64,000 nucleotides of DNA, taken from Prochlorococcus sp. AG-335-I21 (GTDB lineage: Bacteria; Cyanobacteriota; Cyanobacteriia; PCC-6307; Cyanobiaceae). Below the pieces are notes generated by a model that worked only from the letters and a program-made list of their open reading frames with translations, was not told the DNA's origin and did no database searches. Positions 35,426 to 38,489 of this stretch are shown here, one piece after another. The stretch covers positions 1 through 64,000 of the forward strand of contig QBZO01000002.1 of the NCBI GenBank assembly GCA_003282225.1, given 5' to 3'. Within the stretch, counting starts at the first letter, position 1. Each line of letters opens with the position of its first letter. The translations under genes were made by a program, and so were the position numbers.

Positions 35426-36688
35426 TCAAGTTAACAAATTTAAATTTATATGATCCACAATTCTTTTACTAGCCCCCCTTTTACCCATTCTTTTCATTCC
35501 AATTTTTACTTGTTTTAATCTATGATCTTTTTTATTTAGTAAAACCTCTAAATTAGCAATAAGAGTTTTTTTATTATCACAAACTAATACACTTCCTCCT
35601 AATAATCTAGACTGTCTTTTTGCAAATGATTTTGTAAATTGAGGGCCAGCACCGGGAAAAGAAATAGAAGGTACACCAAGACCAGTTATTTGTTCTGTAG
35701 CAGTGCCTGCATTTGACAATCCAACACAGGCCATATTAGCCCACTGATTAAAAGTACTTTTGCCTAACAAAATATATTTATCTTTATTTTTCCAAACTGA
35801 ATCTTCACCAACCAAAAAATTCACATTATTTTCTTCCAAATAACCATTATTAGATAGATGACGCTTAATTGTAAAAACATTTGCATTAATACTTAGAGGC
35901 AAAAGAATAATCAAATCATTTGATATTTTTAAATCTTCTAAACATTTTAAAAAATTATCAAGATTATTTAGAGCTTCAGGGAATCGACTTCCTATTATTA
36001 AAATTAACCTGTTAAACATAATAATATTAGAAATTTTTTCATTTTTTGTATCTACAAAATCCATCATTGGGTTCCCAAAATATTTAGCATTAATCTTTTT
36101 TTTATTTAAATTATTTGCTGTAATTTCATCTCTCATTATTAAACTTTTACATCTAGCAGACCTCATTAGAAGAATTTCCCAAGGGTCCCATTCAGAGCCT
36201 TTAAATTTATGATAAAAATCACTCACTGCCCATCCAGGTCCGTTACTCCATGTATGGTCACTTTTAGGCATGCCGACAAAACTAAATTCGCATTTTGAAA
36301 TCCACGCAAAAAACAAAGGCAACAAATCACCCACGGCAATAATTTTATAATTATCTTTTGACTTGCCTTTTACAATTAAAAAGTTTTTAAAAGTATCTAC
36401 CCAAAACCCTGCAAAAAAATCAAGGAGAAAGCCTTTTAAGCTTTGATTACTGAAACCTCCGCTTGGTAATTCCTTAAGATAACCAATTTTGCTAAAATTC
36501 TTGGATTTTATGCAGTCAAAAACTTTACCATTTCCAACCAATGGCATAACTTCAATTCTTTTAATTTTTATTTTTTTTAAGAATCTTTTTATTATTTCTA
36601 ATGCGATAACATCTTCCCCATGTCCATTGCATATAATTAATAGAGAATGAGACCCGTTACTGGTAGGATCATTATGTGATTCAATCAT
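35426..36688 (-). CDS. Lipid-A-disaccharide synthase-related protein (true start downstream of tRNA-Cys antisense)
   Basis: MIESHNDPTSNGSHSLLIICNGHGEDVIALEIIKRF...; GLSNAGTATEQITGLGVPSISFPGAGPQFTKSFAKRQSRLLGGSV. The listed 36844 start translates through antisense tRNA. Confidence 0.78.
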   Translation of the reverse strand: MIESHNDPTSNGSHSLLIICNGHGEDVIALEIIKRFLKKIKIKRIEVMPLVGNGKVFDCIKSKNFSKIGYLKELPSGGFSNQSLKGFLLDFFAGFWVDTFKNFLIVKGKSKDNYKIIAVGDLLPLFFAWISKCEFSFVGMPKSDHTWSNGPGWAVSDFYHKFKGSEWDPWEILLMRSARCKSLIMRDEITANNLNKKKINAKYFGNPMMDFVDTKNEKISNIIMFNRLILIIGSRFPEALNNLDNFLKCLEDLKISNDLIILLPLSINANVFTIKRHLSNNGYLEENNVNFLVGEDSVWKNKDKYILLGKSTFNQWANMACVGLSNAGTATEQITGLGVPSISFPGAGPQFTKSFAKRQSRLLGGSVLVCDNKKTLIANLEVLLNKKDHRLKQVKIGMKRMGKRGASKRIVDHINLNLLT

Positions 36689-36697
36689 ATCTCTATC

Positions 36698-36768
36698 GGC
36701 GGCATGGCCAAGTGGTAAGGCAGAGGATTGCAAATCCTTTATCCCCAGTTCGAATCTGGGTGCCGCCT
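36698..36768 (+). tRNA. tRNA-Cys (GCA)
   Basis: Acceptor GGCGGCA/TGCCGCC, anticodon in GGATTGCAAATCC, T-arm AGTTCGAATCTGG. Confidence 0.94.
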
Positions 36769-36845
36769 TTTTCAACACAACCACACCTTTATCTATAATC
36801 CATTGCAGGAACAAGAGTTTAGAATATCGGTTGTAGTATTTCAAG
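36748..36845 (+). repeat. Candidate attachment block copy 1 (tRNA-Cys 3' end plus flank)
   Basis: GTTCGAATCTGGGTGCCGCCTT exact 22-mer shared with 37561-37582; the block ends in shared GTATTTCAAG at identical spacing (98 bp). Confidence 0.8.
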
Positions 36846-36855
36846 TGATTTCTTC

Positions 36856-36877
36856 TGGTAGGAAAGTGGTAGGAAAG
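36856..36877 (+). repeat. Tandem 11-bp direct repeat TGGTAGGAAAG x2 (possible integrase arm-type sites)
   Basis: TGGTAGGAAAGTGGTAGGAAAGTGGTA read directly; near-copies at 37479-37500 and an inverted copy at 37426-37436. Confidence 0.8.
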
Positions 36878-37064
36878 TGGTAATTTAATTAAATCTTTTA
36901 TTTTCTACATAATATCTCATTAGTTAAATTACAAATTTAAATTTGAATTTTAGAAATACTCAAAAATAACTTTTCTACGTCCATAAACAATAAATAATTT
37001 TGACATTTTCTTAAGAATGAAATATCTTTTAAACAATTAAAAAATTATAAGAAAATCAAAGAAA

Positions 37065-37373
37065 ATGAAGATAAAAATTCTAACCATCCTAACCTTATTT
37101 TCAACTATTGGTGTTCCAGTATATTCTGGTTATGACGATTATTCCACTCCTAACATTAATGAAGGGGCAATTGGGAGTTATGACGATTATTCCACTCCTA
37201 ACATTAATGAAGGGGCAATAGGGAGTTATGACGATTATTCCACTCCTAACATTAATGAAGGGGCAATAGGGAGTTATGACGATTATTCCACTCCTAACAT
37301 TAATGAAGGGGCAATAGGGAGTTATGATGATTATTCCACTCCTAACATTAATGAGGGTTCTTGGTCATGGTAA
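37065..37373 (+). CDS. Small secreted/exported tandem-repeat protein
   Basis: Signal peptide-like MKIKILTILTLFSTIGVPVYS, then YDDYSTPNINEGAIGS x4 and a fifth variant copy ending GSWSW. Confidence 0.7.
   Translation: MKIKILTILTLFSTIGVPVYSGYDDYSTPNINEGAIGSYDDYSTPNINEGAIGSYDDYSTPNINEGAIGSYDDYSTPNINEGAIGSYDDYSTPNINEGSWSW
37131..37370 (+). repeat. Five tandem 48-bp repeats inside ORF 37065-37373
   Basis: Copies start at 37131, 37179, 37227, 37275, 37323; first four nearly identical at DNA level. Confidence 0.95.
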
Positions 37374-37560
37374 GAAATAATCTTTTGAGTAATTCATAAT
37401 TAATTATGGTTAAGAATCTTTTTTATTTCCTACCTTCCATTTCAAGCAATAGATTTTGTAAAAATAATAAATTATTTGAGGTAGGAAACTGGTAGGAAAA
37501 TGACTATATCAATACCTCTAAAAATCAATTTATAACAATAATTTTCTAAACCTATACCCC

Positions 37561-37658
37561 GTTCGAATCTGGGTGCCGCCTTCTTAATTTGGGTTACAAG
37601 ATTCGCTATAAAGCATTCTAAGAAATGAAGTTTTTCGTAGCGATTTTCGTATTTCAAG
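37561..37658 (+). repeat. Candidate attachment block copy 2 (partial tRNA-Cys 3' end plus diverged flank)
   Basis: GTTCGAATCTGGGTGCCGCCTT ... GTATTTCAAG, same 98-bp spacing as copy 1 with diverged interior. Confidence 0.8.
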
Positions 37659-37837
37659 TCTTTCAGACTGAACAGTAAATGTAAGGTGAGTTACCTGATA
37701 AATTATAAGGTTTGATCAACCTATTATTATTATCCCATTAATAGCTCATTGGGAAAGTTTTCAAGTGATAAAGAAATATCGCCGGAAAATACTAAGAAAT
37801 AGAAGTATCGTGTTGTTTTCCCTTCAGAGAAGAATTA

Positions 37838-38066
37838 AAAAATTAAAACAACTAAAAAAAGAGCCAATTTTAGTATTTTTTGCTTATGGATAAAGATTAA
37901 TTCTTCAGATAAACAAGTAAAAATTTATAAATGGAGATTACGAAAACCAGAAATTAATCAGCCAAAGATCTCATATTTTCAGGAGAGGTCAGAGAATAAT
38001 ACAGAATGGTTATATAAAATGATCAATATTGAAGATATCAAAAACAAAATACCTAAACTTATATAA
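37838..38066 (+). pseudogene. Relic ORF without start codon
   Basis: Open frame KIKTTKKRANFSIFCLWIKINSSDKQVKIYKWRLRKPEINQPKISYFQERSENNTEWLYKMINIEDIKNKIPKLI* with no NTG near the 5' end. Confidence 0.4.
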
Positions 38067-38330
38067 ACAAAATAGGGGGATTGTTTATCCCTATTGACTC
38101 TTCAACCAATTATGTAAAAATTCATTGAATACTTTTTTTGATTCAAATAATACTTATACTTTTGGCGATAAGATAAATATCGTACTAAAACGATAAAGAA
38201 ATTCTAATAGGGAAAAATACTCTATGAATTTTAAATTTATTGAAGAAAAATGAAATGTGGATCAAGGAGGTTTTATGAAACTATTCAATCAATTCAATGT
38301 CCTTCCAAAATAATTATCAGAATTTAACTA

Positions 38331-38489
38331 TGCGGGGTTAAATCTGAACGAAACTCCAAAAGAACTTACCAATACACTCTAGAGTTTCAAAACTTCTGGC
38401 ATAAAGAATGTAGAGAAAATCCAACTAATCAGAATTGTTTAATCTTTTGCGATCGAACACTATTTCTTTTTTCAAACAGGGAGATTTAG
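38331..38489 (+). pseudogene. Relic ORF without start codon
   Basis: Open frame CGVKSERNSKRTYQYTLEFQNFWHKECRENPTNQNCLIFCDRTLFLFSNREI*; upstream MKLFNQFNVLPK* (38275-38313) has AAGGAGG but stops at once. Confidence 0.4.

Follow-up and report, generated by a model that had tools for sequence, protein, structure and literature searches.

The tRNA-Cys gene in the window (the whole stretch of DNA analysed, 64,000 nucleotides) is occupied by a non-autonomous integrative element whose integrase is most likely given in trans and which appears to supply a replacement 5' end to the TIGR03492 gene on the opposite strand, with an older layer beside it. The element contains one gene and no recombinase of its own. 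The features of the site are as follows (strand in parentheses where one applies).

36698–36768 (+): tRNA-Cys (gca), the integration target, located with ARAGORN; its core is single-copy in most relatives
36748–36769 (+): left attachment core (attL), the 22-bp 3' end of the tRNA; exact match
37561–37582 (+): right attachment core (attR) with no tRNA attached; exact match, and core-to-next-gene spacing in one-element relatives
36770–37582: the whole integrated element, 813 bp core to core; absent from L047
36857–36878 (+): left arm-type pair, two copies of GGTAGGAAAGT; no other copies in the assembly
37480–37501 (+): right arm-type pair, GGTAGGAAACT and GGTAGGAAAAT
37426–37434 (−): single inverted arm-type copy, GGTAGGAAA; matching relative position in other elements
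37065–37373 (+): cargo ORF of 102 aa, with a signal-peptide-like start and then about five 16-aa repeats (SYDDYSTPNINEGAIG) in 48-bp tandem units
35426–36844 (−): ORF with a TIGR03492 (lipid-A-disaccharide synthase-related) domain, antisense through the whole tRNA-Cys; NCBIfam E = 6.2e-132, residues 69–467
36770–36844 (−): putative element-borne replacement 5' end of the TIGR03492 frame, TTG start at 36842–36844; codon-like substitutions, start codon in 71/72 relatives
37583–38473: probably what is left of an older element at this site; an extra 726 bp over the empty-site distance, partly absent from L047 and common with L058
37583–37657 (−): the 5' block in its displaced right-hand copy, with the start codon at 37655–37657; 44/76 identities to the left copy and 65/78 to the tRNA-proximal flank of L047
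38516–38713 (−): conserved small gene used as right-hand landmark, found by tblastn in nearly all relatives

Insertion at tRNA-Cys

The 22-bp sequence GTTCGAATCTGGGTGCCGCCTT occurs exactly twice in the window (0 expected by chance), once as the tRNA-Cys 3' end (36748–36769) and once without a tRNA (37561–37582), and the 10-mer GTATTTCAAG follows both copies at an equal offset (36836–36845 and 37649–37658). Both observations had been made in a sequence-only reading of this DNA and hold exactly. That reading had also aligned the interior without gaps, at roughly 45 identities in 76; our count over the 76 bases past the 22-mer is 44. Shuffles of the second copy gave a mean of 21.7 identities (sd 3.8), and 0/20,000 reached 44 (~6 sd); without the final 10-mer, 34/66 positions are identical (shuffle mean 17.6, sd 3.5, 0/20,000). 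The best ungapped match to the first 98-bp copy in the whole window is the second copy. No further copy of the 22-mer or of the window's arm motif was found elsewhere in the 936-kb assembly, which is ~59% complete.

We compared 66 stretches around the tRNA-Cys core from genomes of the same genus (one of them, L100, without the tRNA itself). Empty relatives have a single core ~230 bp from the conserved small gene. Six occupied relatives (L049, L050, L066, L086, L087 and L092) have a second core 228–237 bp from that gene and 0.6–2 kb of other DNA between the cores. The close relative L047 matches the window up to position 36775 and resumes from 37553, and by this alignment it represents the site before the window's insertion. 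Sequence comparison establishes the insertion and identifies 36770–37582 as an integrated element at tRNA-Cys. The sequence-only reading had proposed a minimal integrated element or remnant, and the relatives bear this out: they include empty sites, sites with differing cargo between the cores and a few where a tyrosine-recombinase-like integrase lies between the repeats, rather than one fixed sequence conserved in all.

The flank past the tRNA gave rise to two classes, B and P, among the 63 relatives with both flanks. All 36 class B sites are empty, and class P comprises 25 occupied and 2 empty sites (36/0/2/25; Fisher p = 1.4e-15, an optimistic value because the relatives share ancestry). 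Segmental duplication of chromosomal DNA, with no mobile element involved, would also be expected to leave two homologous flanks, but the same two cores are found empty or occupied by varied cargo in relatives, the elements have paired arm sites, and one such element is 94% identical across lineages (see below). We rejected segmental duplication on the empty sites and assign it a negligible probability.

The window site appears to be layered. The distance from its right core to the small gene is 959 bp, versus ~230 bp at empty sites, and the flank of that right core is itself class P; because of this spacing and this flank, an older element is the best reading of 37583–38473, which is common to L058 along most of its length. 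In L047 the tRNA-proximal flank matches the window's right flank at 65/78 positions and its left flank at 47/78. These comparisons favour two layers, with the right-hand copy as the end of an older, related element rather than ancestral chromosome. A small ORF (MDQGGFMKLFNQFNVLPK...) that L080 keeps intact at the equivalent place has a decayed relative at window positions 38195–38470; the decayed ORF may belong either to the older layer or to the ancestral sequence.

The antisense TIGR03492 frame

The 98-bp homology is best explained, from its codon structure, as 22 bp of tRNA end plus 76 bp containing the start of an antisense gene. Read in reverse on the minus strand, GTATTTCAA gives TTG as the start codon, with codons for Lys and Tyr next; from there the minus frame crosses the core and the antisense of the entire tRNA and reaches the TIGR03492 domain. 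Among relatives, empty class B sites have a tRNA-proximal copy that reads like LKLYTLYLKLKFLENFIIKCVKKLNK, and occupied sites have one that reads like (M/K)xNRYxKLxxLExFI. The first 66 copies contain no stop, and their frame is open into TIGR03492. Among these copies an excess of third-position substitutions is confined to the TIGR03492 frame, where pN/pS is 0.46–0.56, versus ~0.95–1.5 in the other minus frames (column permutation: class P, p = 0.0007; class B, p = 0.036; in relatives that share ancestry). This codon-like constraint on the block is established by comparison of the copies.

A start codon stands at codon −26 or −24 in 71/72 copies. Across the wider family, the 30 loci that match best (L103–L132) likewise keep an open frame along the whole tRNA-Cys, and their N-terminal sequences are clade-specific. 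The frame is lost in 3/15 displaced right copies versus 1/72 tRNA-proximal copies (L149; p = 0.015). Because of the codon pattern, the start codons, the open frame and the frame loss in displaced copies, the block is best explained as a gene start that is replaced by the element; at the sequence level, an in-frame replacement 5' coding end is given in 71/72 tRNA-proximal copies. Replacement is not equally strict everywhere, because integrase-bearing elements of other genera (L176, L240 and L241) bring in a different, shorter or unrelated frame.

The sequence-only reading had taken the conserved flank to suggest a longer attachment region; an antisense 5' coding end fits better, and the likely arm sites lie just outside the block. 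A related explanation makes the 98-bp homology an extended attachment core, or an accessory protein site recognised by the integrase, with an incidental coding appearance. The block does travel with the element, always between the core and the left arm pair, but neither the codon-structured substitutions confined to the minus strand nor the fixed start codons fit such a site. The block sequence also differs greatly between clades with the frame kept, and displaced copies lose the frame. We consider an extended core or accessory site unlikely.

The block could also encode a separate small element peptide, with the excised circle or the left end as its template, rather than the N-terminus of TIGR03492. 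The frame is present in the predicted circle too, where it ends a few to ~30 codons past the core, and codon periodicity is missing from the spacer before the TIGR03492 domain: these 16 codons, from the tRNA to the domain, have no third-position excess (p = 0.40), and the domain itself has one. Against a separate peptide, the block is equally coding-like at the 36 empty sites, which are element-free, and all 66 first loci, like the 30 family loci, have a frame that stays open into TIGR03492; we judge a separate peptide rather improbable. The codon test is weak in the spacer because the spacer probably also holds the tRNA promoter. The negative result nevertheless lowers our claim of one fused protein, and we describe the block as a putative 5' coding end of the TIGR03492 gene, whose N-terminal part may be translated.

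Attachment sites and the source of the integrase

Near each core, and at a fixed distance from it, the 11-bp motif forms a direct pair; one further copy is inverted. Other elements show the same layout with other motifs: GGTCGGCAAGT (L058, L092), GGGCGGTTAGT (L050), GGACAGCAAGT (L075) and GGATGGTAAG (L039). In most elements the motif matches at both ends, though it differs between elements; the two ends of L238 differ in arm motif, and no matching arm pair was recognised in L049 and L086. A paired arm-type layout is what is expected of a lambda-like tyrosine recombinase. The paired motifs lie just outside the 98-bp block and are likely recombinase arm sites.

The window's arm pair was found in 9/266 genomes of the genus, and in the six further arm-pair loci that we read the motif lies next to tRNA-Cys in all. 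The cargo of arm-pair loci varies, from a TPR protein and small membrane-protein-like ORFs to the window's repeat protein. The repeats of the latter (about five, 48 bp or 16 aa each) are nearly identical, and the 102-aa ORF gave no family match. Relatives of the cargo ORF, 56% identical, are present in three other genomes of the genus.

A tyrosine integrase family of Prochlorococcus and Synechococcus, missed by earlier models, adjoins tRNA-Phe or tRNA-Cys in islands of variable content and is distinct from the integrases of tycheposons; the part of that report available to us leaves the integration mechanism open (PMC10187409). We found what may be a member in another genus of the wider family, where a 6.1-kb tRNA-Cys element (L176) between two cores encodes a 468-aa protein at its right end and a serine recombinase (PF00239) at its left. 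Pfam gave no integrase match to the 468-aa protein (only DUF6538, E = 0.066, below the cut-off), and its C-terminal part, read by eye in translation, resembles a tyrosine recombinase (RHTAFR, NGH, TYLRY). From its position, its partners and this C-terminal reading, we infer that it belongs to the family as described in the accessible part of the report (PMC10187409).

Homologues of the 468-aa protein are present in 8/265 genomes of the genus and 26/251 of the family. The 18 integrase regions that we read comprise 12 at tRNA-Cys, 4 at tRNA-Phe and 2 without a tRNA on the stretch. A second tRNA-Cys core lies past the integrase gene in 11 of the 12 tRNA-Cys regions; in the remaining region (L239) the integrase is broken and the second core was not found. 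The four tRNA-Phe regions (L231, L232, L242 and L243) repeat the tRNA end beyond the integrase, and three of the four show 11-bp arm-like pairs. In L182 and L183, serine-recombinase-like ORFs adjoin tRNA-Cys with no second core within the 15 kb read, and these ORFs may be vestiges of larger elements.

Arm geometry differs little between integrase-bearing and small elements, and comparison establishes an attachment-site architecture common to the integrase-bearing elements and the window element at tRNA-Cys. One integrase-bearing element, L233, has the window's arm motif; another, L228, has GGGCGGT arms. The right ends of L233 and the window's element are 51% identical, near background.

The window's element contains no integrase relic, and no homologue of the 468-aa integrase was found in its own genome (~59% complete). 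Five integrases searched against the window region and the HL tRNA-Cys loci, fetched by core or arm pattern, gave no match at E = 0.001. The window element has integration at tRNA-Cys in common with the integrase-bearing elements and lacks the novel integrase. The Pfam Phage_integrase genes of the genus were rejected as the enzyme, as none of those listed lies beside a known tRNA-Cys position; 12 loci with long Phage_integrase genes contain no tRNA-Cys and just one 11-bp pair. Nearly every genome of the genus encodes a ~389-aa Phage_integrase-domain protein, which, among those listed, is not beside tRNA-Cys where both positions are known.

Integrase-less elements appear to transfer between genomes. 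The TPR element of L151 and L152, which has no integrase, is 94% identical between the two loci (96% in the ORF), versus 76% for the flanking TIGR03492 gene and 80% for purM; because the element is so much more similar than the flanking genes, we take it to have been transferred recently. Scans of viral contigs for the 22-mer and for the arm pair, and a blastn search of phage records, gave nothing. Integrase supply in trans would be the simplest reading of this mobility.

We propose that the non-autonomous 813-bp element entered tRNA-Cys by site-specific recombination within the 22-bp tRNA 3' end, and that it may excise from there as well. It appears to retain a complete attachment site (the core, a direct arm-type pair near each end and one inverted copy) and has no integrase, which would most likely be given in trans by a related picocyanobacterial element of the tRNA-Cys/tRNA-Phe family. 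Integration would rebuild the 3' end of the tRNA and would also give the antisense TIGR03492 gene a new 25-codon 5' end on the other strand. In the window the element would have inserted next to a decayed element of greater age, and the right-hand copy would be the displaced 5' block of that older element.

Relation to known elements and biological meaning

The element closest in target is that of the tRNA-Cys/tRNA-Phe integrase family: it uses the same tRNA, and the homologues studied here at tRNA-Cys have a core and an arm geometry in common with the window's element, as well as its arm motif in the case of L233. The window's element differs in having a single gene and neither integrase nor serine recombinase, and the accessible part of the published description mentions neither attachment sites nor integrase-less derivatives (PMC10187409).

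The sequence-only reading had named tycheposons among the integrative elements that duplicate tRNA 3' ends as attL and attR; they are likewise tRNA-targeted cargo elements of Prochlorococcus, tied to seven tRNA genes. A tRNA-anchored cargo element in a Prochlorococcus-like genome would suit a tycheposon remnant. Tycheposons, as described in the parts of the reports available to us, span 4–200 kb and carry their own, different tyrosine recombinase (PMC10872708; PMC10187409), whereas the window's element is 813 bp long, has no recombinase (the xerD-like tyrosine recombinase is absent between the cores), and occupies a site whose integrases come from a distinct family (PMC10187409). The tycheposon label is not supported, and we consider a tycheposon remnant very unlikely.

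Cis-mobilizable elements (CIMEs) have lost integration and transfer genes and kept attL and attR (PMC5704250). The window's element likewise keeps attL and attR with no integrase or transfer genes, and shows tandem accretion at one site; it has integrase-bearing relatives at tRNA-Cys. CIMEs derive from conjugative or mobilizable elements, whereas here there is no conjugation gene, and transfer of such an element on its own is indicated. The additive islands of Methylophilaceae are bounded by repeated 20-bp tRNA-Lys 3' ends and range from 330 bp to 42 kb, with 1–63 genes; they resemble the present case in their repeated tRNA ends and their streamlined marine or freshwater hosts, but neither arm sites nor gene-end replacement are described in the part of that report available to us (PMC10872708). 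In dusA-targeting genomic islands the incoming element swaps the 5' end of the target gene for its own sequence; these islands target one protein gene and bring their own integrase, whereas the window's element has none and brings an end that serves two genes, the tRNA and, putatively, a protein gene encoded on the opposite strand (PMC4482086). By these comparisons the window's element belongs to a tRNA-targeted integrative system as a small member without an integrase, and its logic is near that of CIMEs, repeated-tRNA-end islands and dusA islands.

A wider generalisation is possible, and we offer it tentatively, as more doubtful than the reading of the window itself: tRNA-Cys may be a host site for tiny recombinase-less cassettes with an interchangeable 11-bp arm code, each mobilised in trans by an integrase of matching motif and each carrying a replacement end for both the tRNA and the antisense TIGR03492 gene. 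If true, this would be a cassette system with integron-cassette-like logic in very abundant ocean phototrophs. The loci form a testable unit, with a cassette of <1 kb, likely cis sites, motif-matched integrase-bearing partners, empty sites and one recent transfer. Their core and arm sequences are candidate sites for a family of integrases with a mechanism reported as unknown in the accessible part of its description (PMC10187409). The arrangement itself is unusual, in that a protein-coding frame apparently runs antisense through a complete tRNA and is apparently renewed whenever an element comes in. Gene turnover is fast in streamlined ocean bacteria, and the present findings suggest how single genes on very small pieces of DNA may pass from one ocean bacterium to another with the help of the integration machinery that larger elements carry.
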